Of a stretch of 64,000 bases of DNA, positions 2,728 to 23,210 are shown one piece after another; the stretch's first letter is position 1, and every line of letters starts with the position of its first letter. Location: positions 1-64,000 of IMG/VR virus record IMGVR_UViG_3300005253_000487; one strand, 5' to 3'. The translations under genes were made by a program, and so were the position numbers. Under the pieces are notes generated by a model. The model worked only from the letters and a program-made list of their open reading frames with translations, ran no database searches and was not told the DNA's origin. The DNA is from a virus.

Positions 2728-2728
2728 G

Positions 2729-3520
2729 TTAATCCTTTACCACTTGTGCGTCTAGTTGTGCTGCTGTGTGTTGCATATAGTCTTCGCTGCCCGCAAACAC
2801 GCCCCGCAACGAAGCATCCTTGCGTCTACGTTCCAAGGTGTTGGGGTGGAACATGCCGGCAAGGGAAGAGAAGCCTGAGGTGTGGAGGTGACGAATGTAG
2901 GCCTCAGGTGATGGTACTTGCAACATGGATGTGATCACTGTGTCTGCACGGAACCTCTCGCTCTGGTCCACGCTACGACCAGTGATGTGGCGCCACAGAC
3001 GCATGGACTCTGCAACATGGTGTAGACTCTTAGCATCAGGGGGCAACGCGTCCAGTGCCTTGGATAGCCCTACAATCTTCATTCCTCCAGCGTGTCCCTT
3101 GTCCCTGCGGTGTCGACGTGGGGTAAGGAGAAGTACGCGAATTTGGTTGTACGCGTCCACAGCGTCTGGGCTGGTGAGGGGACCCAATGCGGATAGTCGC
3201 TTCGCTAACTTGCGGCGAACAGGTTCCGCTACGACAAGGTGGAAGCGGGCGAGGTGGGTGTTCACTTCCCGTAACCAATCCACTGTCTGTGGATCCAATG
3301 TGGGCTTCTTCACGCGAGGCAGTTCCGCTCCCGGGCCGAGAGCACGCGCACATGACTTGCAGATGCGGGCGCCTTCGGGCAGTGTGTGGACTATATTCTT
3401 GGCGGGGGTAGCGCGTAGGGTGATAACGCTGACGGTGCTGCACATTGTCTGTCGACCGCCTTGGGGCCACGCGTGCCACGGACGTCGCACAGCAAAGCGG
3501 ACCCAAGTAACTCTTGTCAC
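2729..3520 (-). CDS. Hypothetical 263-residue protein with cysteine site
   Basis: Starts at GTG 3520 in a GTGA overlap with the upstream gene. An N-terminal stretch has CSTVSV and CKSCARALGPG, a possible zinc site. The rest is long, basic and helical, with repeated Arg/Lys clusters (TPRRHRRDKGH). The composition would suit a DNA- or RNA-binding protein, but no family is recognised. Confidence 0.6.
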   Translation of the reverse strand: MTRVTWVRFAVRRPWHAWPQGGRQTMCSTVSVITLRATPAKNIVHTLPEGARICKSCARALGPGAELPRVKKPTLDPQTVDWLREVNTHLARFHLVVAEPVRRKLAKRLSALGPLTSPDAVDAYNQIRVLLLTPRRHRRDKGHAGGMKIVGLSKALDALPPDAKSLHHVAESMRLWRHITGRSVDQSERFRADTVITSMLQVPSPEAYIRHLHTSGFSSLAGMFHPNTLERRRKDASLRGVFAGSEDYMQHTAAQLDAQVVKD

Positions 3521-3711
3521 GTAATCTCCACAAGGACACGGTAGACCTCAGTGTCCAAATCGTCTGCCCGCGCTGGAGCGTCTGTGCGGATGTATACCCG
3601 TTCACCAATACTGTTTAAGTCTCGGTGATCCCAATAGTTTGGTCCTACACTGCTAAATAAATCGCCAGGGCGAAGGTCTCGTTTTACACAAGGTTCCAAA
3701 CGAATGTTCAT
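3517..3711 (-). CDS. 64-residue phage protein, unknown
   Basis: ATGA overlap at its start and GTGA overlap at its end place it inside a translationally coupled string. The sequence (MNIRLEPCVKRDLRPGDLF, then RVYIRTDAPARADDLDTEVYRV) resembles short beta-rich phage proteins. No function can be given. Confidence 0.65.
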   Translation of the reverse strand: MNIRLEPCVKRDLRPGDLFSSVGPNYWDHRDLNSIGERVYIRTDAPARADDLDTEVYRVLVEIT

Positions 3712-3911
3712 ATCTTCTCCGCTTTGTGCAGACTTATGAGTAGTGACACCTGAGACTTTACGCAGGCTTGGAGTGTGGACAAAGGAAGATTGACGTCTGG
3801 GCTAGCACCCCCTTTTACCAATTCCCAACCGCTGTTCCCGCCTGTATTTCGGATGTGTCCTTGTAGGGGCTCCATCCATTGAGGCATGGTCCATTTTATG
3901 TGTTTAGCCAT
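3708..3911 (-). CDS. 67-residue phage protein, unknown
   Basis: The best start is the ATG at 3911 (MAKHIKWTMPQWMEPL), with GGAGG 7 bases upstream inside the end of the helicase gene. Longer starts would read through that site. It ends in ATGA with the next gene. Role unknown; its position right after the helicase suggests the replication module. Confidence 0.65.
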   Translation of the reverse strand: MAKHIKWTMPQWMEPLQGHIRNTGGNSGWELVKGGASPDVNLPLSTLQACVKSQVSLLISLHKAEKI

Positions 3912-5451
3912 TGGTAACCTCCACTGTAAAACCCTCATCATGGTAGAGTTGAATGCGTTTGCGTGCTGCCGTATGGAGGTACTTAGCGGCGCGGGCTAAG
4001 AGACGCTCGTGGCTCTTAAATGTGACCCGGTCCACAATGTCTACGAGCCTGAGGAACTCCTTGCCATCTGTGCGTCGCAGCCCACGGCCGATGCGTTGCA
4101 ATGTCTGCTTCGTGGAACCCTCCCCGCTAACGAATAGAAGGTCAGTGGTATGTCCAAGTCGATTGGTTCCGCGGTCTAGGATCTTAGTAACCACAAGGAT
4201 GTGAATGTCTCCACGTCGGAACTGCCGCAGAACGTCTCGGCGTTGCGCCGGAGATGTGGAGCCATCCAAGAACACTGCACCTTTAATGGCCCGTGTAACA
4301 GAGTGTCCATGTTCCACACGGTTGACGATGACAGCGGTAGGTGTGTTGGGGCGGATGAGAGAGGCGATGAAATCATGACGCGCATAGTTGTTCATGACGG
4401 CCTCTTCGTAAACCCACCGTCGGCGTGCGGGTCCACTAAGCTCCCACCACTTCTTCAAGCCTCCGGTCAGCATGGGTGTGACATCGTATTGGTGTAACGT
4501 GACAGTGGGTGTAGCACTTACGTTGCGCTCTATGAGATCAATGTTCTTGGCTGCGAGTAGGATGGGCCCCATTAAGACGTCGAGTCTGAGATCTTCATAG
4601 GAGTCGTTTGGGAAGGTGCCGGAGAAGCCCAGGCGCCAGCGTGATCCTTTAGTATTGCTAAGGATGCGACGCCACGTTGCGACGTCCGCCCTGTCTGCTT
4701 CGTCTAGCAGTACCATTCCATGCCTGCCGACCCACTTGCGCCATACCTTTGCAGTGTCCCCCGTTTTTGCTGCCAATCGTTTCGACAGTGTTGGGACCAT
4801 GGCAATGGAGACAAGGTCTTGGGGCGGACGTTTAATACCTTGCGACACGCTTGCGGGTGAGAGTGAGGTCCACTTGGTAACCTCGTCCATGAGTGCATCG
4901 AATACGGAGATGGTGTCGCATAGGATGAGGACGGGGACGCCGAGTTGTGCGGCGAAGTCTGCCAGCAGTGCAATCACCGCACCCTTGCCCGCGTTGGTGG
5001 CAAGGGCGAAGCGCCCCCATTCATATTCCACGGCCGCTTTGAAAGCGACACGTTGGTACGTCCCTTGTGGTTCCGGTAGCTGTGTTAAGGTGGGGTGGGT
5101 GGGCGTGCAGGTAGGTGGTTGATTGTCTATTGTAATTGTTAACGCCTTACTCATGCGTTCGAGAAGCCCTCGAGACCCCCGGAACTCCCACACCCCTGGG
5201 CGTAACTGACGGCAGTACTTCCCCGGTGTGTAGGTGCCGTCCCAGAATACTGCCGCTGCTTTCTTACGTGCGGACGCCTCAGTCATCCCTCCCTGTATTA
5301 ACCTTCCTACCATGCTAGAGAACTTGCGGAAGCGGGGTGTGAACTGTGCATCAGGTACGGCATGGCGTTGACTCTCACGCCAATCGTACAGTGCCTTCGG
5401 CCCCGTAACAACCATTTCCGCGTGGTTGATGAGGTGGGCAACGGCAGTCAC
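3904..5451 (-). CDS. SF2 DEAD-box helicase
   Basis: 515 residues. Helicase motifs appear in order: motif I TNAGKGAV near residue 152, motif II LLDEADRAD near 250, motif III GFSGTF near 277, and motif VI QRIGRGLRR near 450. This is a full superfamily-2 ATPase of the type phages use in replication, recombination or branch migration (UvsW-like). About 130 residues precede motif I. It starts at GTG 5451, overlapping the stop of the zinc-finger gene. Family certain; pathway inferred. Confidence 0.88.
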   Translation of the reverse strand: MTAVAHLINHAEMVVTGPKALYDWRESQRHAVPDAQFTPRFRKFSSMVGRLIQGGMTEASARKKAAAVFWDGTYTPGKYCRQLRPGVWEFRGSRGLLERMSKALTITIDNQPPTCTPTHPTLTQLPEPQGTYQRVAFKAAVEYEWGRFALATNAGKGAVIALLADFAAQLGVPVLILCDTISVFDALMDEVTKWTSLSPASVSQGIKRPPQDLVSIAMVPTLSKRLAAKTGDTAKVWRKWVGRHGMVLLDEADRADVATWRRILSNTKGSRWRLGFSGTFPNDSYEDLRLDVLMGPILLAAKNIDLIERNVSATPTVTLHQYDVTPMLTGGLKKWWELSGPARRRWVYEEAVMNNYARHDFIASLIRPNTPTAVIVNRVEHGHSVTRAIKGAVFLDGSTSPAQRRDVLRQFRRGDIHILVVTKILDRGTNRLGHTTDLLFVSGEGSTKQTLQRIGRGLRRTDGKEFLRLVDIVDRVTFKSHERLLARAAKYLHTAARKRIQLYHDEGFTVEVTNG

Positions 5452-5597
5452 TTCTTAATCCTTACGCACTCTGCTTCGTGGGCATGATGCTTCTTGGCGC
5501 AGGCGTAGCACAATTGGTCTCCGCACTTGTGGCAAAGGAACGTGGCGTCCTTCCCGCATTTGCTTTTGTGTACGATTACTATGCAATCACAACCCAT
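5448..5597 (-). CDS. 49-residue B-box/AN1-like zinc finger
   Basis: A complete short ORF, MGCDCIVIVHKSKCGKD... with cysteine/histidine pairs CDC, CHKC, CYAC, HHAH and a final C. The spacing (CxC, C, CxxC, CxxC, HxxxH) resembles B-box or AN1 zinc fingers. It sits between two coupled genes (stop of the upstream gene inside its start, GTGA at its end). Probably a binding module; partner unknown. Confidence 0.65.
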   Translation of the reverse strand: MGCDCIVIVHKSKCGKDATFLCHKCGDQLCYACAKKHHAHEAECVRIKK

Positions 5598-5874
5598 CGT
5601 CGTCCTCCTCTATGTAATCATCACTGGGATGGAGTGCAGCGTGCAGACGGCGGGGGTTCCACACCCGCTCTCGTCTCTCGAACAACGCAAGCTCATCCCG
5701 CCGGAAGAAATGCCTAGGCAGACCAACACAACGCACGTCAACTTTCCAATAGCGTTCTGTCATTGTGCCGACAACACCAAGGTCGCCTGCTGACAACTGG
5801 ACAAAGAGGGGGCTGTCTGGGCATGGAGTAATCAACACGACGTCCCACTTACGTAGTCTAGTGCGGTGCTTCAT
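5587..5874 (-). CDS. Basic beta-rich protein, unknown
   Basis: Chosen start ATG 5874 in an ATGA overlap with the upstream stop (a GTG three codons earlier is possible). 95 residues, with an early stretch KWDVVLITPCPDSPLFVQL like a small KOW/SH3-type barrel and an acidic tail (DDYIEEDDDGL). No family confirmed. Confidence 0.55.
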   Translation of the reverse strand: MKHRTRLRKWDVVLITPCPDSPLFVQLSAGDLGVVGTMTERYWKVDVRCVGLPRHFFRRDELALFERRERVWNPRRLHAALHPSDDYIEEDDDGL

Positions 5875-6218
5875 TTCATCCACCGTCGTTGGGTAGACAG
5901 CCCTTCCCCTTCCATTTCTTCTTCAGCGCTTATGTCGTCGACGATATTGATGGTATAGAGTTTGCCCGTTACTGGCTTGCGTGGTGGATGCTGCGGTTGG
6001 GTTTCGAAGCGTGTGTAACTACCAGGTCGTCTTACGCCTGTGGCTAGGAACTCACACTCGGCGCACGTTTGTCCGAACGTCTCAGGTACTGTGACGAAAC
6101 CTTCTCCAAGCCATTCATCGCAGATGGCCTTGTTGAGGTCCGCGGTGTAGTGGGCCTTACTCTGGAAGCCCCCACGGCTTCTCCATGCGACACGGACGAG
6201 GTGATCGGGAGTTGGCAT
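5871..6218 (-). CDS. 115-residue phage protein, unknown
   Basis: Starts MPTPDHLVRVAWRSRGG, with AGG upstream of the ATG, and ends in ATGAAATGA with the next gene. A central CAECEFLATG could be half of a zinc site; the C-terminal 20 residues are acidic. First gene downstream of the tRNA-like RNA. Function unknown. Confidence 0.6.
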   Translation of the reverse strand: MPTPDHLVRVAWRSRGGFQSKAHYTADLNKAICDEWLGEGFVTVPETFGQTCAECEFLATGVRRPGSYTRFETQPQHPPRKPVTGKLYTINIVDDISAEEEMEGEGLSTQRRWMK

Positions 6219-6231
6219 AGTGCCCTGCCTT

Positions 6232-6344
6232 GCAAGTGAGAAAGCCGATGACCAGGAATTGAACCTGGACGCTCTAGGGTCATGTGGTCCCTCGAGCCAT
6301 GCCTACATCGGCCGCGCCCACAGTGTCTCCGCCGTCTCACTTGC
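6232..6344 (-). ncRNA. tRNA-like structured RNA with long outer stem
   Basis: On the minus strand a 10-bp outer stem (GCAAGTGAGA at the 5' side, pairing with 6232-6241) encloses a tRNA-like fold at 6244-6312. This has a 7-bp acceptor-type stem (GCCGATG/CATCGGC), a perfect T-arm (CCAGG, loop TTCAATT, CCTGG) and a long central hairpin (GCTC and AGGG paired with CCCT and GAGC). There is no D-arm, no clear anticodon and no encoded CCA. It is therefore not a normal tRNA. The outer stem plus tRNA-like module recalls bacterial Y RNAs (YrlA type); a decayed tRNA is the alternative. Confidence 0.6.
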
Positions 6345-6418
6345 TTGAGCCACCGTACACGACTTCGGCGCTTTGTGCCCTTGCCGGCGCGCCGCGTGCC
6401 GTTCTAATAGTCTGCCCG

Positions 6419-7057
6419 CTACGCCTTGCGGTAGCGTAGCACGTTAATGGGTAGTGTTGCTGGGTCCAACATACGTTCCGCAAGGTAGTCTGCTGTGAAT
6501 TGCCGAATGCGGTGTAGCGTACGATGCCATTCCGTGCGCGTTAACTTGAATGCGGTTCGGAGTTGCACATGGGATGGGCGGATGTGTTTGCTGCCCCGTT
6601 GCTTCAACCTTGCCTTGCGTCGTGCAGTGATGCGAAGGAGTTTGCAATAGCGTTCGTCCTGGGGCTGGAGCAAGTTCTCTGCCACGCGTCGTGCAAGCAT
6701 CCCTTCCATCACCTCGAGGGCGTTGAGGTAAGCGTCGAGGTCGAGCGCGTTGTTCCACGCCCCTTGTGGATCCTGTAGCATCTTGTCCGGGGGGGCTGCG
6801 GTGAGGGGGAAGTCCTCGCGGTGACGGGCGCCGGAGTAGCGCCAGCCCCCGCTCCAGTAAATCCACATGCATCGTTGCAACAGTGTCCGCGCAAGTGCAA
6901 ATGATTTCTTGTGGACAGAGCTGCGGTGGTAAGAGAACAGAGCTTCCTGTACTAGGTCGTCTACGTCAGCTGGTTGCTGTGTGATGCGTCGGGCGAGTGA
7001 GTGGGCGAGGACGTTCAATTGTTGCGGTGTTGGAGACGGTGATTTGATTGTGGGCAC
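6419..7057 (-). CDS. Phage RNA polymerase sigma-like factor
   Basis: 212 residues. Region 2.2 of sigma-70 is visible as LAHSLARRITQQPADVDDLV followed by QEALF, the DDLxQEAL core-binding helix. The C-terminal part has a helix pair (RPSHVQLRTAFKLTRTEW) that could be region 4. AAGGAG lies 8 bases before GTG 7057. A phage sigma would redirect host polymerase to phage promoters, for example those carrying the repeats at 17049-17150 (inference). Divergence is high, so it is called sigma-like. Confidence 0.65.
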   Translation of the reverse strand: MPTIKSPSPTPQQLNVLAHSLARRITQQPADVDDLVQEALFSYHRSSVHKKSFALARTLLQRCMWIYWSGGWRYSGARHREDFPLTAAPPDKMLQDPQGAWNNALDLDAYLNALEVMEGMLARRVAENLLQPQDERYCKLLRITARRKARLKQRGSKHIRPSHVQLRTAFKLTRTEWHRTLHRIRQFTADYLAERMLDPATLPINVLRYRKA

Positions 7058-7068
7058 GATGGAACTCC

Positions 7069-7503
7069 TTAAGGGTTAAAGATTATAACTTGCTTACTTA
7101 ATTGACGAGCGTATCTAACTGTTGCCCATGTTCCAGAACGCACCACCTCCCCCTCTTGTTTTGGTGCCGCTAACATGACGTCACAGGCGGCAGCCATGTC
7201 GCGGTTGCGTTGGAGGTATGGTCTGGGAGGCATGATACGTTGGGCTGGTACTGGACAGTAGGCGCGCTTTCTAGCATCACTAGGCGGGTGTAGTATGACG
7301 AGGTGCTCTAAGCCTGTCTCCTGTACTATGGTAAACATCTGTTCGTCTGCCATGATGCAATCGCCCAAGTGGATTGAGCGCAGTGCTGCGCGATACTCAA
7401 TTAGGTAGTTGGTGAGATCGAAACATTGACGAGTGGTTAGGTCCCGGTGTTGGGTGCCAGTGAAACTTATGTCTAATTTGTTGTGCATAATTTTGCTGTC
7501 CAT
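7069..7503 (-). CDS. SLOG/DprA-like Rossmann protein
   Basis: 144 residues. The C-terminal stretch reads VMLAAPKQEGEVVRSGTW, then ATVRYARQLSKQVIIF. This is the nucleotide-binding signature of SLOG-fold proteins (DprA, YspA and lysine-decarboxylase-like families): an A-P, a Ser/Thr-Gly-Thr-W-x-T loop, then a helix. Such proteins bind or cleave nucleotides or nucleotide signals. No ribosome-binding site is seen. A TATACT box about 8 bases before the ATG, with TTGCGC upstream, suggests a leaderless message. Confidence 0.65.
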   Translation of the reverse strand: MDSKIMHNKLDISFTGTQHRDLTTRQCFDLTNYLIEYRAALRSIHLGDCIMADEQMFTIVQETGLEHLVILHPPSDARKRAYCPVPAQRIMPPRPYLQRNRDMAAACDVMLAAPKQEGEVVRSGTWATVRYARQLSKQVIIFNP

Positions 7504-7578
7504 GCGACAGTATATGCAGACTTACAAAGGCGCAAGGGTTTTACTCTAACCCAAAAATTCGTATCGTATAAGTAGCGC

Positions 7579-8474: not shown

Positions 8475-8514
8475 AAAAAAGGCCACCAACACATTGCGCG
8501 TTGGTGGCCTTTTT
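8475..8514. terminator. Bidirectional rho-independent terminator
   Basis: A 10-bp perfect stem (GGCCACCAAC with GTTGGTGGCC), loop ACATTGCGC, flanked by A6 on the left and T5 on the right. It can terminate the plus-strand RHH operon and, from the other side, the minus-strand ribozyme operon. Confidence 0.9.
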
Positions 8515-8516
8515 GT

Positions 8517-8669
8517 AAGTTCGAGGGGGCCTGCTCCCCGCCGTCTAACTACGAGACGGGAAGCAAGGAGCAACCCTCCCCCTCTGGTGCCCGGAGTCCA
8601 CTTTCTAATGGAACGCCCGTTGACGCAGACCGCCTGGGTGGGCCATCCCATCCAGACACCATTGTCTAC
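8517..8669 (-). other. Structured 3' untranslated region
   Basis: 150 bases between the VWA gene stop and the terminator, without an ORF. On the minus strand two strong foldbacks are visible. The first is CTGG-A-TGGG, loop ATGG, CCCA-C-CCAG near 8630-8655. The second is a longer nested one at about 8524-8585 (GAGGGGG with CCCCCTC outside, GCTCC with GGAGC, and CCGTCT with AGACGG inside). It lacks the hammerhead core. It may protect the 3' end of the operon message. Confidence 0.45.
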
Positions 8670-9947
8670 CTACTCCTCTGCGGAAACAACTTCCCCGAAC
8701 GGCACTCTATCTTGTGCGTGGTATGTGGGCGTGACCCACAGTACCGGCACGTCCGGTGCCTGTTCCGCCGGAGGGAATGTACCATACAGGTCCGTAAGGT
8801 ACAGCACGCAGGCAGGCGGTTCGTCTAGCCCCTCCAGCGCTGCGAACACTGGACGGAAATCTGTGCCTCCTCCACCTGCTGCCTCCAGGACAACCTGCTC
8901 GCCCTGTTCGAACGTCTCTTCCTTCTGGAGTGCCGCATCGCAATACATGATGTGGATACGGCGGGGCCTCATTTCTTCTGCCACTGCTTGCACCTCCGCA
9001 CCAAACAACGCGAGGAGCGTAGCGTCTATCGATCCGCTTGTGTCAATACCAATTACAATTGGACCAAGCTCCCGACTGTAAAGGGACGGGAGATACAAAC
9101 CCAACGGCATGTATCTGCGGTTGGGCTGCTCCCAGGAGTAATCACTGTTCGTGATCTCCTGTACGAAGCGCCGCAGCACGGAGCGCCAATCAACGCGTGC
9201 TCTTGCCGCTTGCTCCGCGAGGCGCGCGAGTCCGCCGGGCAGCTTGCCCTGTCCCTCGGCAAGTGCGGCGGCCTGTTGCACCGCTTCCTTCCAATCTTCC
9301 TCCGTGGGTGTTTCCGTGTCGTCGTCTCCGTTTGCTGCCGGAGCGTCTCGAACCTCACCGCCGAAGGGATCTTCTTGTTCTTCCTGCTCTTGCTCATCCT
9401 GATCATCTTGCTGCTCGTCCTGGTCTTCGTTTCCATCCCCGTTACCCTTGCCACTGCCACCGGGTTGCGACTCGTCGTCGCTGTCTCCACTACCGTCTTC
9501 GTCCCCTTCGCCCTCGCCTTCCTTGGGCTGTGGTTTCTGTAAACGATTGTAGATCCATTCGGCGGACTTACCAACGTGGCTGGGTTCGAGTTCGTACAAC
9601 ACATTGTCCGGAAGCTGGAACGACGCGTCACGTAACACTGGATTCAGTGCACGGTCAGCAGCTTCGTTCCATTGCCCCGCCTCGCGCCCAGCACGCCGCC
9701 AAGGATGCCCAAGGACACAGTGTCCAACTTCATGGGCAGTCAATGCGACGCGGCGTGAGTGCGAAGGGAGACTGTTGATGTACGTGGGATTGAAGCCCAG
9801 CGTCTTGCCATCCACCCATGCGGTCTTGCACGATGGATCTTCTCTCAGCTTCAGCTTCAATGTCAACGTACCCCAGAACGGTTCTCCAAGGACGAGCGCC
9901 GTACGTGCGGCAACCATCCTCTTCATTGCTTCTGACTGTTGCTTCAT
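8670..9947 (-). CDS. VWA-domain protein with HExxH metallopeptidase-like domain
   Basis: 425 residues from ATG 9947, placed by GAGGAGGCAAAG. The N-terminal third has HEVGHCVLGH near residue 71, a zinc-metallopeptidase motif. A long acidic Glu/Asp/Gln-rich linker follows (about 185-245). The C-terminal half is a von Willebrand A domain with the MIDAS start DTSGS near 300 and later GGGTDF. This matches the DUF2201/VWA-like partners of MoxR ATPases, and the MoxR gene lies in the same operon. Together they probably act as a metal-linked chaperone or remodelling complex; the target is unknown. It is the last gene of the ribozyme operon. Confidence 0.82.
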   Translation of the reverse strand: MKQQSEAMKRMVAARTALVLGEPFWGTLTLKLKLREDPSCKTAWVDGKTLGFNPTYINSLPSHSRRVALTAHEVGHCVLGHPWRRAGREAGQWNEAADRALNPVLRDASFQLPDNVLYELEPSHVGKSAEWIYNRLQKPQPKEGEGEGDEDGSGDSDDESQPGGSGKGNGDGNEDQDEQQDDQDEQEQEEQEDPFGGEVRDAPAANGDDDTETPTEEDWKEAVQQAAALAEGQGKLPGGLARLAEQAARARVDWRSVLRRFVQEITNSDYSWEQPNRRYMPLGLYLPSLYSRELGPIVIGIDTSGSIDATLLALFGAEVQAVAEEMRPRRIHIMYCDAALQKEETFEQGEQVVLEAAGGGGTDFRPVFAALEGLDEPPACVLYLTDLYGTFPPAEQAPDVPVLWVTPTYHAQDRVPFGEVVSAEE

Positions 9948-9970
9948 CTTTGCCTCCTCGTAAAGTGTGG

Positions 9971-10040
9971 GTTGCCTCATCAGTGCATGGGTACCCAACC
10001 CATGCAGACCGGACACCAAGCGGTGCCCGGTTTCGGCTAG
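9971..10040 (-). ncRNA. Hammerhead ribozyme copy 1 (open stem II)
   Basis: Minus strand order: CTAGCC, GAAA (10034-10031), a 9-bp stem III with GCTT loop, UC (cleavage expected after position 10007), a perfect 9-bp stem I (TGCATGGGT/ACCCATGCA), CTGATGA (9983-9977), GGCAAC. GCC pairs with GGC to close stem II. The TAG stop of the upstream gene lies in the stem II strand; GAGGAGG for the VWA gene follows 3'. Confidence 0.9.
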
Positions 10041-10312
10041 CCGCGTAGTTCTTGCAGCTCTTGGATAGTTGGTATGTCTTCATCCCAACAACCAATGATG
10101 TTTTCGTCAGTGAAGCCTGCTGCCATCATGCTGACGAATAGACGCTTACGATTCTCTGGTGTTGGATCCTTCATATACCTTTCTAGCTCTACCATCATTG
10201 CGTCATCTGGTGCGGCGATGGCATTACCTAACGCCACTCCGAATGCGTAAGGAGTACGCTTGTGTGGGTGAGCAATCTGCTCCCGTACAATCTCCTCCGG
10301 CGTGTTTGCCAT
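10037..10312 (-). CDS. 91-residue acidic protein, unknown
   Basis: Starts one base after the stop of the DUF3150-like gene, with GGGAG upstream, so the two are probably co-translated. The sequence is helical and acidic (MANTPEEIVREQIAHPHKRT at the start, DEDIPTIQELQELRG at the end). Its TAG stop forms part of ribozyme copy 1. Probably an accessory subunit of the MoxR/VWA system; no family recognised. Confidence 0.65.
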   Translation of the reverse strand: MANTPEEIVREQIAHPHKRTPYAFGVALGNAIAAPDDAMMVELERYMKDPTPENRKRLFVSMMAAGFTDENIIGCWDEDIPTIQELQELRG

Positions 10313-10313
10313 G

Positions 10314-11216
10314 TCAAGCTCCCTTCTTGGCAGGCTTCTTCTTCGGCGGAGTGTAGACGCCCTTCATGCTTGCCAAGATGGCGTCGGCCTTGCGTGCGGT
10401 GTCCTTGCGGAACTTCTCATCATCACGCAACGACTCCACGTCCAGGGTCGACAGGTCCAGTAGCACCTGCTTCCGTGCCTTCTCCAGCTTCGCGTCCCCG
10501 GTGAGGTTAAGGCGGCCAATGATCTCCGCCATCTCACCGACGCGTGCTATCATTGTCGGCCGCAGATACTTCCCATCACCCAACTTGGTCCGCAGGTCTG
10601 TCACTGTGTCGCCCAACCGCTGCCACACATCGCCCATGGCGTCTGCGACTGCCTGCTTGACTCTGTCTTCCACTCCACGTGTCATGGCCTTTAACTGCTC
10701 CTTGGGTAGAGTGACTCGAAAGTCATCCCCGGAAGGAACAGGACCGTACTGGATAGTGAAGTGGAACTTAGTCCGGACCTGGCTTGTGGTGGGGTAGTCT
10801 GAACGTTTATACATCTGCCCCAACCGTTCCTCTGCTGTCCGTACGAGCGTTGGATAGTCCCTGAGGAACTTCTCCAGCGCCGTCTCATACCTGGTCTGCA
10901 CTGTCCGCATCGCTTCGACATACTCGAAGTAATTGGCAGTAGGTAAGAGACGCCAGCCCGCGTCCTCCCAGGGCAAGGTATGTTTGTAGTGCGTTACCCT
11001 TGCGACCTGAGTGGCGTTGACGAGCATCGAGTGTGACGGAGCGTCGCCCCCGAACAGTCGTTTGTGGTAGCGTCCTGCACGATCGTTCTTGGCCATCTCC
11101 GTATTCACTTTGTCGGTGACCTCTGCGTCGTGCTTCCGGGCGCTCCACAAGCCGATCCACACGTTGACGAGCATTGCTCGCCCCAAGATAGATGTGGACT
11201 TCTTTGTTGTGGTCAT
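10314..11216 (-). CDS. DUF3150-like protein
   Basis: 300 residues from an ATG placed by AAGGAGGCAAGC. The N-terminal pattern (LGRAMLVNVWIGLWSARK followed by HDAEV) and the long helical body resemble DUF3150 proteins, which occur beside MoxR ATPase and VWA genes in phages and bacteria. The C-terminus is a basic tail (PPKKKPAKKGA). It probably works with the ATPase and the VWA protein. Family assignment is moderate; the neighbourhood supports it. Confidence 0.6.
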   Translation of the reverse strand: MTTTKKSTSILGRAMLVNVWIGLWSARKHDAEVTDKVNTEMAKNDRAGRYHKRLFGGDAPSHSMLVNATQVARVTHYKHTLPWEDAGWRLLPTANYFEYVEAMRTVQTRYETALEKFLRDYPTLVRTAEERLGQMYKRSDYPTTSQVRTKFHFTIQYGPVPSGDDFRVTLPKEQLKAMTRGVEDRVKQAVADAMGDVWQRLGDTVTDLRTKLGDGKYLRPTMIARVGEMAEIIGRLNLTGDAKLEKARKQVLLDLSTLDVESLRDDEKFRKDTARKADAILASMKGVYTPPKKKPAKKGA

Positions 11217-11244
11217 GCTTGCCTCCTTGTGTAGTTCAGTGTGG

Positions 11245-11313
11245 GTTGCCTCATCAGTACGTGGGTTCCCATTCCACGTAGACCGCCCACGACGTGTGGG
11301 CGGTTTCGGCTAC
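11245..11313 (-). ncRNA. Hammerhead ribozyme copy 2
   Basis: Core elements CTGATGA (11257-11251), GAAA (11307-11304) and UC (11282-11281). Stem III is CCGCCCAC with GTGGGCGG; stem I is TACGTGG with CCACGTA. Stem II is GTAGCC with GGCAAC (one A-A mismatch). The upstream stop TAG sits in the stem II strand, and AAGGAGGCAAGC for the DUF3150-like gene follows. Confidence 0.9.
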
Positions 11314-11486
11314 CTCGCAATCATCTCCGCTTCCATCTTCTTCATGGCGTCGCTAAGTTGTTCCCACCAAGAACGTATTCCAAGGTGAGGGTCGCCAGTT
11401 AACTGGACGATGGTTGATGCGATAGCATGAATGCGTTTGACTTGGGCTTCCTGGTCCTGTAAAGACCATTGCTCTCGCCCAGCCAT
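11310..11486 (-). CDS. 58-residue protein, unknown
   Basis: A short complete ORF, MAGREQWSLQDQEAQVKRI... ending MKKMEAEMIAR. Its ATG overlaps the stop of the MoxR gene (TAATG) and its TAG stop lies in ribozyme copy 2, so it is enclosed by functional signals. Mostly helical and amphipathic. Probably a small partner of the MoxR ATPase. Confidence 0.65.
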   Translation of the reverse strand: MAGREQWSLQDQEAQVKRIHAIASTIVQLTGDPHLGIRSWWEQLSDAMKKMEAEMIAR

Positions 11487-12514
11487 TACGCCGTACCGGA
11501 GATGAGCTGTCCAAGCTCACCGGACATCAATCTGACAAACTCCGGGGTGTTAACCAACTCCGGGTTGTTGCGTTCCGCATCCTTGATCAACAGTGCAGCG
11601 AATTCGCCGTGTCCTTCCTCGACGAGCCTCTCGGCGTAACGCGCCACGCGGCCAAAGTTCTGCTCGTTGGCCTTGATGGCGAGCCCTGTCACTGTAGCAT
11701 ACAACGCTGACAGGTCTGTCGGGATGTCCTGTCCATCCGGATTGATTAAGATGGCGTCGATGCTGGGTAGCTGACGGAACATCCGTAAGAAGGCGCGCAA
11801 CTCTACCGAGGCGCCTTCACCTACGGCGCCCGCTAGTGCTTCACCTTCCAGTGTGTCAGGTAGCCCAAGCTCCAGGACGTGTCCAGCGTTGCTCCAGGTG
11901 CGCGGTAGCGGGCAGTTCGTCATGTCCGCTGTCGGTGTGAACTGGCACAGCAACTCTGGGCGGAACCGAAGGAATGCAATCAGCTCCGGCGGGATGTGCG
12001 TTTGCGTGAACGCCCATTGACACCAGTCGTCCAAGTCCTCAACCAACTCTACGATGGATATGAACCTACTCTTCACGGGCTCCAGTATCCCACTGACGTT
12101 CGCACGGTCCGTGCGCCGGTTCGTTGCTGCAATGAACGACACTACATCGGGCAGCCTGTGCCCGTTGATTTCACGCGCCAAGATTAACTGCATCTTGGCC
12201 GCCTGTACGGCGCCCGGTGCTTGACCAAGATCGTCCAGGAACCATACCGTGTCTACTGTTGCGGCAAGTGCTTCAGCGAACTGCCCGAACGGTAGGAACT
12301 GAGCGGTCTTCTTGTCCGCCGACGGCCAAGGAAGCCCCTTGGAGTCCGTCGGATCTTCCACCGCGGGGTGCGACAGTATCATCCGCGCACCTGCGGTGTC
12401 ACATGCCTGTGCCACTACGTCACTCTTACCTACGCCAGGCTTCCCAGTGATTAGCACTGGGTGACGCTTTGGAATGGCGAGTGCGAGGAACATGGCCAGT
12501 TGTGATGGTTTCAT
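11486..12514 (-). CDS. MoxR-family AAA+ ATPase
   Basis: 342 residues from ATG 12514, preceded by AAGGAGGCAAAG. Walker A GKPGVGKS lies near residue 26 and Walker B VWFLDDLGQA near 92. A sensor-1-like FIAATNRR follows near 130. This is the MoxR/CbbQ type of AAA+ protein, which remodels or inserts cofactors into target proteins together with a VWA protein, here encoded three genes downstream. The operon arrangement supports a functional pair. Target unknown. Confidence 0.85.
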   Translation of the reverse strand: MKPSQLAMFLALAIPKRHPVLITGKPGVGKSDVVAQACDTAGARMILSHPAVEDPTDSKGLPWPSADKKTAQFLPFGQFAEALAATVDTVWFLDDLGQAPGAVQAAKMQLILAREINGHRLPDVVSFIAATNRRTDRANVSGILEPVKSRFISIVELVEDLDDWCQWAFTQTHIPPELIAFLRFRPELLCQFTPTADMTNCPLPRTWSNAGHVLELGLPDTLEGEALAGAVGEGASVELRAFLRMFRQLPSIDAILINPDGQDIPTDLSALYATVTGLAIKANEQNFGRVARYAERLVEEGHGEFAALLIKDAERNNPELVNTPEFVRLMSGELGQLISGTA

Positions 12515-12537
12515 CTTTGCCTCCTTGTAGTGTGTGG

Positions 12538-12606
12538 GTTGCCTCATCAGTACGTGGATTCCCATTCCACGCAGACCGGATGCACAGTGCATCCGGTTTC
12601 GGCTAC
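12538..12606 (-). ncRNA. Hammerhead ribozyme copy 3
   Basis: CTGATGA (12550-12544), GAAA (12600-12597), UC (12575-12574). Stem III has CCGGATGCA with TGCATCCGG around a CAG/CTG loop. Stem I has UGCGUGGA with UCCACGUA, including a G-U pair. Stem II is GTAGCC with GGCAAC. The upstream TAA stop directly precedes the ribozyme; AAGGAGGCAAAG for MoxR follows. Confidence 0.9.
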
Positions 12607-13500
12607 TTACTTTGGTGGCCACATGTACGTGAACTCCGGGCGTCCATACCACGTGACGTAGTGTCCGAGGGCGTCCTCGATGTTCTTGCTTCGTGGTTTG
12701 GACATGCCGTCGTTGTTACGGAACCACCTCCAGAATTCAATCTTCCAATCCCACCATATCGAATCCTGTGGCGTGCACAGGTCGTCCAGGGTGACCTCAT
12801 ACTCATGCCCGTCTCGCCGGCACCGCATGAACTTCTTGCGCTCCGCGGGTGGGAGGCTAAGGAACATGAGCGACTGTTGCATACCGAAGAACAACTGGCC
12901 GCGCATTACATCCTCGTTCCAACACCTGGGTATCTCTTCCACAATGTCCTCGGACAACGTTAGCAGTGGGCAGACGGTGTGGAAGAATGTATCCTCACTA
13001 TCGCTTTGCCAGATGTCGTAGAACGCCATGTCAAACGTACCGGGTGTTCTGTCCTTGAGGTATTCGAATAGGTCCGCACAGACTACAGTGATCTTCCCAT
13101 CGTCATCAGGCAGATGTTGGTTGACTAGCTTGATGACCTCTGATGAGATCTCTACGACGGTGACCTGCTCCACGTCTGGGTTGGCTGCTAGGTTTGCCGC
13201 AGCATAGCCTAGCCCCAGTCCACCAACCAACACCGTGCCGTAATAGCCCTCGAGAATGTTGTTGGCTTGCGCTTGTTCCACGGGCTCGTCTGTCATCCAC
13301 ACCCCTTGGTCCTCTTGGACTAGTTGGTGGAAGCGCACCCGCTTGTCAAATTTGACAGCCTTACTCTGCTGGCCAAAGAGTGCCGTGCGTGCGGTGGCGG
13401 TGTGGAATTTGTGTCCCACCTTGAAGTGAAGATGCTTGATGCTGTAAGCACCTTCCACCCCTTCAGGGATGTCGAGGACGGGCCAATACTTCTGTTTCAT
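12607..13500 (-). CDS. Class I SAM methyltransferase (spermidine-synthase-like)
   Basis: 297 residues. The Rossmann glycine loop is TVLVGGLGLGYAAANLA near residue 90, then VTVVEISSEVIKLVNQH with the acidic ribose-binding residue, and FDMAFYDIWQSD as the motif IV region. This pattern is closest to spermidine-synthase-like methyltransferases. The substrate cannot be read from sequence. It stands alone between ribozyme copies 3 and 4, so its message would be released as a single-gene RNA. Confidence 0.75.
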   Translation of the reverse strand: MKQKYWPVLDIPEGVEGAYSIKHLHFKVGHKFHTATARTALFGQQSKAVKFDKRVRFHQLVQEDQGVWMTDEPVEQAQANNILEGYYGTVLVGGLGLGYAAANLAANPDVEQVTVVEISSEVIKLVNQHLPDDDGKITVVCADLFEYLKDRTPGTFDMAFYDIWQSDSEDTFFHTVCPLLTLSEDIVEEIPRCWNEDVMRGQLFFGMQQSLMFLSLPPAERKKFMRCRRDGHEYEVTLDDLCTPQDSIWWDWKIEFWRWFRNNDGMSKPRSKNIEDALGHYVTWYGRPEFTYMWPPK

Positions 13501-13524
13501 TGTTGCCTCCCTGTAGTGTGTTGG

Positions 13525-13593
13525 GTTGCCTCATCAGTACGTGGATACCCATTCCACGTAAACCGCCCATGGAGTGTGGACGGTTTCGGCTGC
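13525..13593 (-). ncRNA. Hammerhead ribozyme copy 4 (U17 variant)
   Basis: CTGATGA (13537-13531) and GAAA (13587-13584). Stem III CCGTCCA pairs with TGGGCGG using a G-U pair where copy 2 has G-C. The cleavage-site base is U instead of C (plus-strand AA at 13561-13562), which still fits the UH rule. The stem II strand is GCAGCC, with weaker outer pairing. The upstream TAG stop abuts it at 13594-13596. Confidence 0.85.
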
Positions 13594-14433
13594 CTACTTC
13601 TTCCGGCGCGTGCTTTTCTTCTTCCGCCGCTTGTCCGCAGTGGGCGTGGCCTTCCTACGTGTCACCTTCTTCTCTTGGCGTGGTGCTGCGGCCGTGTGTT
13701 CTGTGACGTGCCCATCGCTATTGTTCTGGGCTACGACGCGTGCCCGCTCACCCTGTGCTTGCACGCGTGCTTCTTTGCGTGCTGCCCGTTCCTTAGCACT
13801 TGTCTCCCGTCGGCGCCAGCGTGAGCGCCCCAGGTCTGGGAAACGTACTGTGTGGTCTACGATCAAGTCCGCCCGCTCGTTGGCTTGAGCACGCACATAC
13901 TCCACACCTTCTGGATCAATTACAACGTCGTGTGACTGACCATGTACGTCCATCGTTGCGCCACTCCAACCCTCAGTGCAGCGGCTGGATGTATTGACGG
14001 GAACGTCTGCGTCACTAACCTGCGGAATGCCAGCCGCGCGCTGTGGACCCAACCTCTGTTCCAGTAACGCGAAGTAGGCTTCCTTACTACCTAGCACCAC
14101 GAAGAGTGCCTCACGGAGTGGACGGTTGCTGCTGAACCCTAAGCGGTCGCGCTCAGCACCCATGGTCGTCTCTCCCGCTTGTAGACGGGGGAGGACTTCG
14201 CGTGCTTCCTGCAAGAGCGTCTCATCAAGTTGCTTACCGCCTTTGGGCTTCGCAGCTTTCTTCTTGTCTGCCTTCGCCGTGTCATTGACCCGCTTGTCCG
14301 CGTCCGCCTTCGCTGTGTCATTGACCCGCTTATCCGCCTTAGCTTGCGCGGACTTAGCGGGCGCCTTCTTCTTCCGTTTAGGGAAGGCGTTCTTGGCTGT
14401 AGCTTTCTTAGTACTCTTTCTCGGTCTTGCCAT
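13594..14433 (-). CDS. Lysine/arginine-rich histone-like protein
   Basis: About 279 residues, starting at the second of two adjacent ATGs for better spacing from GGAGG. Both ends are highly basic (KKATAKNAFPKRKKKAPAK near the start, KRRKKKSTRRKK at the end), like histone H1 or AlgP tails. A 12-residue unit DKRVNDTAKADA is duplicated near residues 35-58, also at the DNA level (14270-14340). The middle part is a neutral globular segment. It probably binds DNA or RNA non-specifically. Confidence 0.6.
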   Translation of the reverse strand: MARPRKSTKKATAKNAFPKRKKKAPAKSAQAKADKRVNDTAKADADKRVNDTAKADKKKAAKPKGGKQLDETLLQEAREVLPRLQAGETTMGAERDRLGFSSNRPLREALFVVLGSKEAYFALLEQRLGPQRAAGIPQVSDADVPVNTSSRCTEGWSGATMDVHGQSHDVVIDPEGVEYVRAQANERADLIVDHTVRFPDLGRSRWRRRETSAKERAARKEARVQAQGERARVVAQNNSDGHVTEHTAAAPRQEKKVTRRKATPTADKRRKKKSTRRKK

Positions 14434-14455
14434 CATTGCCTCCTTGTGTTTGTGG

Positions 14456-14523
14456 GTTGCCTCATCAGTACGTGGATACCCATTCCACGCAGACCATCCA
14501 CTCCGGTGGATGGTTTCAGCTAC
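14456..14523 (-). ncRNA. Hammerhead ribozyme copy 5
   Basis: CTGATGA (14468-14462), GAAA (14517-14514), UC (14493-14492). Stem III is CCATCCAC with GTGGATGG around CGGA. The stem II strand is GTAGCT, giving a G-U instead of C-G closing pair. Three consecutive in-frame TAG codons of the upstream gene run into it. AAGGAGGCA for the histone-like gene follows. Confidence 0.88.
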
Positions 14524-14525
14524 TA

Positions 14526-14843
14526 CTACCTAGGTGGTGCGTCGACCGTCCGTCGGTACGTCCCTTCGCACAGGTAGCTTGAGTGCGAGATGCGCTGGAG
14601 CCTCAGCCGCAGTGCCTCAACGTCCTTGCACGCCAGCAACAGTTCTAGATCCTTTGCCGTCATGCATTGTGCAAGGACGCGAGCACCAATGCGGACATCC
14701 AGTAAGTCTACGTCTTCCGCCCGTGCCAACTTGCCGTCCGTGAAGCAATGGATGTTCCCGGTGCTGTGTTCCAGGATGCGTCCAATCATCTTCACGTACC
14801 TGTTCTTGACGATGACGACATCGCCTTCTTCGAAGACGCGCAT
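14526..14843 (-). CDS. 105-residue protein with KOW/SH3-like start
   Basis: ATG 14843 shares TGATG with the upstream zinc-finger gene, which is better supported than the longer GTG start. The N-terminal part (MRVFEEGDVVIVKNRYVKMI) reads like a small beta-barrel. The rest is helical (KDLELLLACKDVEALRLRL). It ends in TAG TAG TAG just before ribozyme copy 5. Function unknown. Confidence 0.6.
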   Translation of the reverse strand: MRVFEEGDVVIVKNRYVKMIGRILEHSTGNIHCFTDGKLARAEDVDLLDVRIGARVLAQCMTAKDLELLLACKDVEALRLRLQRISHSSYLCEGTYRRTVDAPPR

Positions 14844-15064
14844 CACCCACCACCCTTCGGTCCTTCGGTCTTGCAAGCGCGTCCGCAGAAGATGTGATTG
14901 TCGTGCGCGAGGATTGCCGTACCCGCTGGCAGATTCTTGCCACACGCTGCACACTTGCGATCGACTTGCGCCCGGAACATTGCCTGTCTACGCTCGACTT
15001 CTTCGATGTTCGCTAGGAGCCCGCGTGCTCGCCCGGACTCAGTACCGCTTGTTCGTTTGTTCAT
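14843..15064 (-). CDS. 73-residue zinc-finger protein
   Basis: Starts MNKRTSGTESGRARG at ATG 15064, with AAGGAGGCACAC upstream. It has CAACGKNL near residue 46 and CGRAC near 66, a four-cysteine zinc site like an FCS or MYND-like mini-finger. Its TGA overlaps the next ATG. Probably acts with the product of the following gene. Confidence 0.6.
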   Translation of the reverse strand: MNKRTSGTESGRARGLLANIEEVERRQAMFRAQVDRKCAACGKNLPAGTAILAHDNHIFCGRACKTEGPKGGG

Positions 15065-15084
15065 GTGTGCCTCCTTGTGCGTGG

Positions 15085-15158
15085 GTTGCCTCATCAGTAC
15101 ATGGATTCCCATTCCATGCAGACCGGACAGCGTAACACGGCTGCCCGGTTTCGGCTAC
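15085..15158 (-). ncRNA. Hammerhead ribozyme copy 6
   Basis: CTGATGA (15097-15091), GAAA (15152-15149), UC (15122-15121). Stem III is CCGGGCAGC with GCTGTCCGG and a larger loop. Stem I is UGCAUGGA with UCCAUGUA, where an A-U pair replaces the G-C pair of copies 3-5 (a compensatory change). Two tandem TAG codons of the upstream gene lead into GTAGCC. Confidence 0.9.
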
Positions 15159-15697
15159 TACGGTCCGCCTATCTGCGGTCCGCTTATCTGGTGGACGTTC
15201 TGCTCGTGCGCCTGTCGCATGAGTTCTTGCAGCACTTCAATCGTTTCGCTTGCGTGCGTCTCCACCTCGCCCCAGTCGACGTCGACGACCAGTATGTCGA
15301 TGAGGCCCGCAACGCGTTGCTCCGCGTCGTTGACTGTGAGGATGGCCTTGTCCACTTCGTCGGACCCATCGTCCCATTCTGAGAGGATGCTGAAGAGTGT
15401 GTAAAGCTCATCTGGTAGCTCGTCACGCGCCGCAGTGTCCAACTTGTCTGCAAACTTGGCTACCTTGCGGAGCTTGTTGAAGTTTACCGTGCCGTTAGCG
15501 ATGCACGCCTTTTGCACACGGTCCAAAATCTTCTGGTAGGCGTCGCAACTCATCCTCACCGTTGTCGTGGTACAGCCCCCGCTGTCGTCGCACGCTTGTA
15601 TCATGCGCCTGTGTCGCACTATCAGTGCCTGCATCGCACGAATCGTTGCTGCCCGTAGCTTCCTGTTCCGCGCCGGGATCTTCGATGGACGTTTCAT
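15158..15697 (-). CDS. Hypothetical 179-residue protein
   Basis: ATG 15697 with GGGAGGCAAG upstream. The N-terminus is basic (MKRPSKIPARNRKLRAATIR), then helical and increasingly acidic (VVDVDWGEVETHASETIEVL). It has no recognisable motif. It lies alone between ribozyme copies 6 and 7. The charge pattern suggests a scaffold or adaptor protein, which is only a guess. Confidence 0.6.
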   Translation of the reverse strand: MKRPSKIPARNRKLRAATIRAMQALIVRHRRMIQACDDSGGCTTTTVRMSCDAYQKILDRVQKACIANGTVNFNKLRKVAKFADKLDTAARDELPDELYTLFSILSEWDDGSDEVDKAILTVNDAEQRVAGLIDILVVDVDWGEVETHASETIEVLQELMRQAHEQNVHQISGPQIGGP

Positions 15698-15724
15698 TCT
15701 TGCCTCCCTGTAGTGGTGTTGTGG

Positions 15725-15793
15725 GTTACCTCGTCAGTACGTGGGTACCCAACCCATGCAGACCGGATGCACTGTGCACCCGGTTTCGGCTAC
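15725..15793 (-). ncRNA. Hammerhead ribozyme copy 7 (C7 variant)
   Basis: The core strand reads CTGACGA (15737-15731) instead of CTGATGA. Position 7 is the one free position in the hammerhead core, so this supports the identification. GAAA 15787-15784; UC 15762-15761. Stem III is CCGGGTGCA with TGCATCCGG. Stem II is GTAGCC with GGTAAC, using a G-U pair. The upstream TAG is in the stem. Confidence 0.88.
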
Positions 15794-16416
15794 TGCCGGT
15801 CCAACGGGTACTGGAACTTCTCCAACACTACTGCCCATGCTGCTGCTGTCTGCTGCTCGATGATGTTGTGCACTGGGCTAGTGGAGTACGAAGGGGAACG
15901 CGTGGCGCGTACAACTTGCTCCAACGCTTCGACGCGGATCTTTTCATTCATCTCTTCCGCTGTGTCCCCATCCTTCCTGAACTGTGCGATGTACTGTAGC
16001 ACACCTCGGCACACGGTACCACTTGCGGCGCGCCTTATCACGTCCATGCTCGAGCCGAACCCGTAAGTCATGTCCGCTTGTGGCGCGTCCACTTGCTCTA
16101 GCAAGCGTGCCGTCCACTTCCGTATCTCCTTCTCACAGTAGCCAACTTCACGCTCCAAGTCTTCCACTCTGTGTACCCACCGCTCTGCTACTGTGGCAAT
16201 GTACTTGAAGTGGAGTTGCGTGCGCGTCTTGTTGTCGAACCCAATGAGATACTGCCCTTCCCCCAGGATCTTCTCTTCCCTGGTGAAGGCTTCCAACAAC
16301 GCCTTCTGTGTTCCATACTGCCACGGCGGATGTAAGTCCACGCGTGCCATGTTGGGTGTGCCGTCCGGCATCGCTTCGGCCTGGACGTCATGCTGCTGGT
16401 GTAATGTGTAACGCAT
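15790..16416 (-). CDS. Hypothetical protein, first gene of the ribozyme operon
   Basis: 208 residues from ATG 16416, with GGGAGGCAAG upstream. Helical and charged, with one notable segment (GYCEKEIRKWTARLLEQVD). No catalytic motif is visible. As first gene it follows the leader ribozyme (copy 8), and its TAG stop lies in copy 7. Function unknown. Confidence 0.6.
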   Translation of the reverse strand: MRYTLHQQHDVQAEAMPDGTPNMARVDLHPPWQYGTQKALLEAFTREEKILGEGQYLIGFDNKTRTQLHFKYIATVAERWVHRVEDLEREVGYCEKEIRKWTARLLEQVDAPQADMTYGFGSSMDVIRRAASGTVCRGVLQYIAQFRKDGDTAEEMNEKIRVEALEQVVRATRSPSYSTSPVHNIIEQQTAAAWAVVLEKFQYPLDRQ

Positions 16417-16441
16417 TCTTGCCTCCCTGTAGTGTGTGTGG

Positions 16442-16532
16442 GTTGCCTCATCAGTACGTGGGTACCCAACCCACGCAGACGTAACACGCATCCGCTAGGC
16501 AAGCGGTTGAGCGCGTGCTACGTTTCAGCTTT
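16442..16532 (-). ncRNA. Hammerhead ribozyme copy 8, in the operon leader
   Basis: CTGATGA (16454-16448), GAAA (16526-16523), UC (16479-16478). Stem I has UGCGUGGGU with ACCCACGUA. Stem III is extended: a 10-bp helix (CGTAGCACGC with GCGTGTTACG) capped by an inner hairpin (CCGCT with AGCGG). The 5' flank can form an alternative hairpin, GTTTC AAAGCT GAAAC, that would hide the catalytic GAAA. No gene precedes it, so it cleaves the 5' leader. Confidence 0.85.
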
Positions 16533-16560
16533 GAAACTTTACAAGGAGGAGGCATACTAG

Positions 16561-16944
16561 ATGCGCCGCCGTATCCCGTCTGTCTGCAATCTTGTGCCCG
16601 TCGTCCACGTCTCAATACGTACGAGCTGTGAACGCCGTGCACGCCGCAAGCACTTAGCGGAGGGGGTCGGTTGCTGTCGCTGGCTGAACGCCCTTAACGC
16701 GCATCTAGTTTCTGTTCGACTTCCGCGTCCCATTGTTGTGCGTGCTGCACACCCACCTTCCGTCCAGCCACTTAGCACGTCCTCGGGCTCCCGTTCCCTT
16801 AAGCATTCCGCTGGCGCTCTAACTTCCCCGTCCATCCACGCGCTACAACTTCTGTGTACCCCCGCGCTGACTGTGCTGTCTGCGTCGTCTATGGATCCGG
16901 GGTCGCAGTTTCTAACTGCATCGGCAATGCTGCCATCCCCGTAG
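16561..16944 (+). CDS. Doubtful 127-residue ORF with strong ribosome-binding site
   Basis: The ATG is preceded by AAGGAGGAGGC at good spacing, which argues for translation on the plus strand. The protein (MRRRIPSVCNLVPVVHVSIR...) is Ser/Pro/Cys-rich and unlike a folded protein, and the plus strand here is pyrimidine-rich, as on the template side of genes. An opposite ORF at 16557-16964 is equally unconvincing. The stretch 16533-16960 may instead be a long leader of the minus operon. Confidence 0.3.
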   Translation: MRRRIPSVCNLVPVVHVSIRTSCERRARRKHLAEGVGCCRWLNALNAHLVSVRLPRPIVVRAAHPPSVQPLSTSSGSRSLKHSAGALTSPSIHALQLLCTPALTVLSASSMDPGSQFLTASAMLPSP

Positions 16945-17048
16945 TGCGCGTCCACGTAGCGCACCCTCCAACATCCACCCCTAACTACATGCTACTACAC
17001 CTACACTTACAATCTACGACACGCAACCCAAGGACGCAAGTGTTTTGC

Positions 17049-17150
17049 AAGTGCTTATATAGCAACCACTTACAGCGTCGCTCCCGTTGGATCGGTCGAA
17101 AAAGGGGAGCTTTTAAGCGATGCTATAAGTGCTTATATAGCAACCACTTA
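17049..17150. repeat. Perfect 24-bp direct repeat in the divergent control region
   Basis: AAGTGCTTATATAGCAACCACTTA is written here only as AAGTGCTTATAT followed by AGCAACCACTTA. It occurs at 17049-17072 and 17127-17150, 78 bp apart. Each copy has AAGTG/CACTT inverted ends and a TATATA core. Position between diverging operons suggests twin promoters for the phage sigma-like factor or operator sites. AT-rich flanks are consistent with either. Confidence 0.6.
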
Positions 17151-23034: not shown

Positions 23035-23210
23035 TGACTTATACCTATGTCGTGCTTGAGGTGTCGGAGGAAGCTTATCGAGAGATCCGGACTAAGCTAG
23101 AGGAGGCGGACTATCAGTATATAATGTCTCGTCCCTCTGACCCAAACTGTATCATCGACATGCACGGCATTGCAATCCAACCGAGGACTAAGGAAGAGAG
23201 TGGTCAATGA
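23034..23210 (+). CDS. 58-residue protein, unknown
   Basis: A short complete ORF (MTYTYVVLEVSEEAYREIRT, ending EESGQ) with GTGATG and CAATGA overlaps to both neighbours, so it is coupled to the kdsD-like gene. Beta-strand then helix, like small phage accessory proteins with a ferredoxin-like fold. No family assigned. Confidence 0.6.
   Translation: MTYTYVVLEVSEEAYREIRTKLEEADYQYIMSRPSDPNCIIDMHGIAIQPRTKEESGQ

Follow-up and report, generated by a model that had tools for sequence, protein, structure and literature searches.

Predicted type II hammerhead ribozymes at every separable gene start of a phage operon

IMG/VR virus record IMGVR_UViG_3300005253_000487 (88 kb), whose positions 1 to 64,000 form the window analysed here, belongs to a tailed phage. 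From 17.2 kb on, its plus strand carries the genes for terminase, portal, head morphogenesis, tape measure and tail fibre, and a divergent operon of 11 genes on the minus strand ends at a strong intrinsic terminator. Eight elements within this operon had been described in an earlier note, made from the sequence alone, as minus-strand hammerhead ribozymes with an open stem II. The Rfam Hammerhead_II covariance model (RF02276; gathering cut-off 37 bits), applied to the whole record, recovers all eight intervals, every one on the minus strand and together spanning 9966-16530, and has no further matches elsewhere in the record. These matches are:

Hammerhead 1, 16437-16530, minus strand: 32.8 bits (below cut-off), core complete; predicted cut 3' of C 16478; long stem III
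Hammerhead 2, 15720-15791, minus strand: 33.3 bits, below cut-off; predicted cut 3' of C 15761; CUGACGA, GGUAAC
Hammerhead 3, 15080-15156, minus strand: 41.8 bits; predicted cut 3' of C 15121
Hammerhead 4, 14451-14521, minus strand: 44.8 bits; predicted cut 3' of C 14492
Hammerhead 5, 13520-13591, minus strand: 48.9 bits; predicted cut 3' of U 13561
Hammerhead 6, 12533-12604, minus strand: 41.7 bits; predicted cut 3' of C 12574
Hammerhead 7, 11240-11311, minus strand: 51.4 bits; predicted cut 3' of C 11281
Hammerhead 8, 9966-10038, minus strand: 45.5 bits; predicted cut 3' of C 10007

Judged by sequence and predicted fold, all eight belong to the type II hammerhead ribozymes, with stem II open. 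Six copies pass the gathering cut-off (41.7-51.4 bits), with 15720-15791 (33.3 bits) and 16437-16530 (32.8 bits) falling below it, at E values of 2-3e-6 over the 88-kb record and with complete cores; the covariance-model check proposed in the earlier note thus gave a match at each interval, but only six of the eight above threshold. All copies carry CUGANGA (CUGAUGA in seven, CUGACGA in one) and GAAA, the latter preceded by GCC or GCU, along with GGCAAC (seven copies) or GGUAAC (one), an A15.1-U16.1 pair and a residue H17 other than G (C in seven copies, U in one), and the motif details given previously hold throughout.

Structurally, stem II (3 bp) is open, and stems III (8-12 bp) and I (7-9 bp, interrupted by a mismatch in copy 2) are closed by loops. 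In the alignment of the eight copies, 95.7% of cells pair standardly, versus 85.4 ± 1.4% with shuffled partners, and sliding the partners by 1-3 columns lowers pairing to 26-42%. Ten pairs in stems I and III are altered on both sides, which bears out the earlier statement that these stems vary by compensatory change, the exception being a single A-C mismatch in stem I of 15720-15791; the stem III of 16437-16530 is very long. All eight copies also have a pseudoknot between loop I and the 3' tail (UGGG/CCCA) that the earlier note did not contain, a contact that is common, though not universal, in type II hammerheads (PMC3088659). Across 68 copies from 12 arrays, complementarity of the loop to its own tail has a mean run of 2.84, versus 1.12 with the tails of other genomes, for which the maximum of 2000 draws was 1.65. 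Among the arrays compared, L251 (G010; 2569-7558) and L028 (G018; 10787-13098) lack this pseudoknot in every copy and have stem I loops of 3 nt, which suggests that they may use another tertiary contact instead.

The operon in which the ribozymes sit comprises, from its upstream end:

17049-17071 and 17127-17149, minus strand: two perfect repeats of 23 bp (AAGTGGTTGCTATATAAGCACTT) whose ends are inverted; candidate promoter or operator
16531-17048, minus strand: leader, about 500 nt, that shows no coding signal (across codon positions, the G+C of the open reading frame (ORF) at 16557-16964 is flat, in contrast to that of the operon genes)
15790-16416, minus strand: gA, 208 aa, no assigned function; ORF with a GGGAGG Shine-Dalgarno (SD) sequence
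15158-15697, minus strand: gB, 179 aa, no assigned function; ORF
14843-15064, minus strand: gC, 73 aa, possible zinc-binding protein; weak LIM/Endonuclease_7 match
14526-14843, minus strand: gD, 105 aa; start and gC stop overlap, with no intervening ribozyme
13594-14433, minus strand: gE, 279 aa, lysine-rich, no assigned function; ORF
12607-13500, minus strand: gF, 297 aa, methyltransferase/spermidine synthase-like; phrog_15480 (E 3.9e-17), Spermine_synth (E 6.8e-5)
11486-12514, minus strand: gG, 342 aa, MoxR-like AAA ATPase; phrog_1297 (E 1.1e-66)
11310-11486, minus strand: gH, 58 aa; start and gG stop overlap, with no intervening ribozyme
10314-11216, minus strand: gI, 300 aa, DUF3150; PF11348 (E 7e-6)
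10037-10312, minus strand: gJ, 91 aa; starts 1 nt past the gI stop, no ribozyme between
8670-9947, minus strand: gK, 425 aa, DUF2201 metallopeptidase and VWA-like domain; PF13203 (E 2e-52), PF09967 (E 2e-26)
8475-8515, minus strand: intrinsic terminator at the operon end; 17-bp hairpin and T run, -29.4 kcal/mol, z -5.95

A ribozyme stands at each of the eight gene starts that neither overlap nor abut the preceding gene, and at none of the three overlapping or 1-nt junctions (gC/gD, gG/gH, gI/gJ). The upstream stop codon lies within 7 nt of the ribozyme in all seven cases where the ribozyme follows a gene, and in three of these seven its UAG forms part of the ribozyme's 5' end. Between ribozyme and ATG there are 14-23 nt, which in every case include a GGAGGCA ribosome-binding site, and among minus-strand sites of the window GGAGGCA with an ATG 0-6 nt downstream occurs at these eight genes only. 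The repeated unit thus consists of a stop codon, a ribozyme, a fixed ribosome-binding site and a start codon. Cutting at the predicted positions would leave leaders of 56-64 nt that begin with a 23-nt hairpin (stem I), and 3' ends closed by the stem III hairpin (-11 to -24 kcal/mol). The operon probably starts near the 23-bp repeats at 17049-17149, which are possibly a phage-specific promoter or operator; the repeat has only two matches in the window (none expected) and none in the next 20 kb. Internal promoter- or terminator-like sites within the array are not above chance.

With regard to relatives, the phage collection held none that were close by DNA. Searching with gG gave one viral contig (L011; 56% identity), which has no ribozymes, searches of viral contigs with gK and the terminase returned no relatives, and among the matches listed the terminase is less than 30% identical to those of cultured phages. 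As no relative was near enough for a comparison of orthologous junctions, R4-like Streptomyces phages (Arquatrovirinae) were taken instead. All 13 R4-group phages examined carry 8-12 type II hammerheads, on one strand and mostly above the cut-off, each between the stop codon and the ribosome-binding site of successive genes, as in the present phage, although the genes and the ribozyme sequences are different ones, some genes lack a ribozyme, and these phages are cultured with laboratory hosts. Grouped by the gene that follows, two ribozyme positions are filled in all 13 phages, others in 12 or 11 of them, with the core motif present in 124 of the 125 copies. Among orthologous copies, 700 of 823 stem changes that affect both bases still pair, versus 22-42% with partners shifted by one, and this retention of pairing at orthologous starts indicates that selection keeps the ribozyme structure at fixed gene starts. 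Loop/tail complementarity in these phages is hardly different with the own tail (3.27) and with random tails (3.05), because the copies share the motif. In phage R4 itself (L271, NC_019414), gp60.1, gp67.1 and gp75.1 coincide with hammerhead matches (41762-41845, 44125-44217 and 47073-47174, respectively) and, on this overlap, are probably ribozymes and not genes; the annotated starts of some R4 genes (gp81, gp72) likewise precede a ribozyme and look too early.

Arrays were also found in other virus contigs. A strict DNA pattern scan returned at least 120 stretches, and RF02276 scoring of 123 source records gave 11 with at least four matches (top counts 10, 9 and 7 among the matches listed), a proportion that is no frequency estimate, nearly all of the 123 records having been picked for a ribozyme-like match. 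The order of stop codon, ribozyme, SD sequence and start codon recurs in these arrays. None of their 42 short junctions holds a ribozyme, a count that is partly trivial because the ribozyme itself lengthens the gap, and for which a simple gene caller erred; the rule on coupled junctions is therefore drawn from the hand-checked window.

A ribozyme at every separable start, none at a coupled junction, and a single fixed ribosome-binding site point to separation of messages and standardisation of their leaders, and the same pattern argues against scattered mobile elements. We consider it likely that the type II hammerheads cut the nascent operon RNA into eight messages of one or two genes, all with a uniform leader. 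Leftward transcription would begin at about 17.1 kb, and each ribozyme, stabilised by its loop I/3'-tail pseudoknot, would fold and cut the growing transcript between stems III and I. With the transcript terminated at about 8.48 kb, the products would be gA, gB, gC-gD, gE, gF, gG-gH, gI-gJ and gK, translation-coupled gene pairs staying on one message, and the leader of about 500 nt would be cut off in front and released as a separate RNA. Each message would have a 5'-OH, the 23-nt stem I hairpin, a near-uniform leader of 56-64 nt and the GGAGGCA ribosome-binding site, and the 3' end of all but the last would be the stem III hairpin, carrying a 2',3'-cyclic phosphate. The benefit of cutting is likely to be insulation, as protected ends and a standard leader would decouple stability and translation from those of the neighbouring genes. 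Motif, structure, covariation and placement are features of this operon itself, and processing into one- or two-gene messages, as the earlier note had proposed, fits this anatomy and is strengthened by the comparative evidence.

Several points weigh against such processing. Self-cleavage is predicted for this phage from homologues tested by others, and in that work 4 of the 18 hammerheads assayed were inactive, some of them, the authors suspected, being false positives (PMC3088659). The eight copies are paralogues and hence not independent. In the lowest-energy folds of 15720-15791 and 16437-16530, stem I gives way to pairing of its 5' strand with the 3' tail, and these two copies may be weak ribozymes. 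Finally, homologues of gG, gI and gK occur in phages without ribozymes, no hammerhead match being found in phages with gG or gK homologues (N4, phiFa and Vibrio 1.025.O), and these genes therefore do not need ribozymes.

The main rival, suggested by the contact between stop codon and ribozyme, is a translation-sensitive switch, in which a ribosome finishing the upstream gene would block folding, such that cutting reports translation of that gene. The distance of at most 7 nt, and the overlap or abutment of the stop codon with the stem II strand and GAAA core, are what such a switch would call for, but the stop-to-ribozyme distance differs widely among R4-like phages and no coding gene precedes the first ribozyme; we regard the switch as unlikely. 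In a variant of it, the ribosome-binding site would be paired with the upstream GCC until cutting freed it, and RNAalifold, run on the eight copies, does pair this GCC with the invariant GGC of the site. The alternative pairing is 3 bp only, however, and computed accessibility of the ribosome-binding site changed in no consistent way upon cutting, on which account its release by cutting was rejected.

Three further explanations are less likely than either co-transcriptional cleavage or the switch. That the repeats serve as DNA-level linkers for cassette shuffling by homologous recombination, ribozyme activity being incidental, would agree with a repeated unit that extends from stop codon to start codon, with adjoining genes that are not paralogous, and with L011, where the gG and gI homologues are adjacent without a ribozyme or gH between them; yet the stems diverge with pairing kept, a pattern that selection on DNA similarity would not yield, and we think this improbable. 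Equally little commends the view that the repeats are mostly inactive remnants of an element that has spread: two copies are below the cut-off and may misfold, but decay would not have spared the catalytic core, which is complete in all eight copies while stem III differs widely with its pairing kept, and this is a very improbable account. A third view is that the ribozymes, or a ligase of the host, rejoin the cut segments to form circular or spliced RNAs; a segment between two ribozymes does carry the 5'-OH and cyclic phosphate ends that ligation requires. The genes of the operon, on the other hand, require ordinary 5' leaders, and Perreault et al. sought circular or spliced products and detected none (PMC3088659); religation therefore seems to us highly improbable.

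Message separation by clustered hammerheads has a precedent. The earlier note had taken hammerheads to occur singly in bacteria and phages and knew of no operon described as processed by them, and neither statement stands: both phage clusters and the message-processing idea have been known since 2011 (PMC3088659). That study describes hammerhead clusters in prophages that flank single genes or short blocks, proposes processing into single-gene mRNAs, and documents three tandem arrays that cut in vitro and one that cut in E. coli. As here, several same-strand type II hammerheads with the pseudoknot flank genes in prophage clusters of Clostridium scindens, Azorhizobium caulinodans and Agrobacterium tumefaciens, but the largest array given with a copy number in the 2011 text is a triple one (PMC3088659), whereas the eight copies of the present phage cover every separable start and each is joined to an invariant ribosome-binding site. 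What is added is the most orderly array among those compared, which covers a whole operon and ties each ribozyme to one ribosome-binding site, together with further arrays, which have 4-10 copies in the other virus contigs and 8-12 in R4-group phages. Open-licence literature linking phage R4 to ribozymes was not found, and the sole open-licence paper found to pair a Streptomyces phage with a hammerhead merely cites aminoglycoside binding to the hammerhead. Since the R4-like arrays belong to phages cultured on Streptomyces coelicolor and S. lividans, their function can be tested in a laboratory host; as of 2023, the biological reason for the association of bacterial and phage hammerheads with genes was still unknown (PMC10085705).

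Other systems resemble this one in part. In haloviruses HF1 and HF2, the HHphage hammerhead lies 13 nt before a start codon, with a transcript 5' end mapped near the cut, but it is a single copy with a variant core in an archaeal virus (PMC3088659). The start-associated sequences of Cluster K mycobacteriophages are likewise repeats with inverted arms at many non-structural gene starts (PMC3203893). TM4 (Cluster K) has no hammerhead match, and the 13-bp Cluster K motif GGGATAGGAGCCC gave three matches with two mismatches (1.3 expected), none at these starts; its absence from the eight starts led us to reject it as the identity of the repeats. Among engineered parts, insulators such as RiboJ place a hammerhead before the ribosome-binding site and thereby give a uniform 5' leader. 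RiboJ is an engineered single unit, whereas the ribozymes of this phage are natural and repeated through the operon. We hold it quite possible, if a little short of probable, that hammerhead message separation is the standard route by which entire non-structural operons mature in several phage lineages unrelated to one another, namely this virus, R4-like Streptomyces phages and other metagenomic phages. If so, a module of ribozyme and ribosome-binding site would give each independently started gene a uniform leader and protected ends of its own, as a natural, operon-wide counterpart of engineered insulators.

Regarding the genes themselves, gG (MoxR-like ATPase) and gK (DUF2201/VWA) are relatives of the N4 gp24/gp25 pair. 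The gK family, phrog_1314, is labelled HNH endonuclease in PHROGs, and Pfam instead gives a DUF2201 metallopeptidase and a VWA-like domain; the HNH label looks wrong, and has passed into many RefSeq phage records (N4 gp25). Between gK and the terminator, a long hairpin at 8525-8605 is no more stable than shuffled sequences. In the virion cluster, the plus-strand gene at 23207-24178 has a match to phrog_5670 (E 2.9e-21), a phage family resembling arabinose 5-phosphate isomerase.

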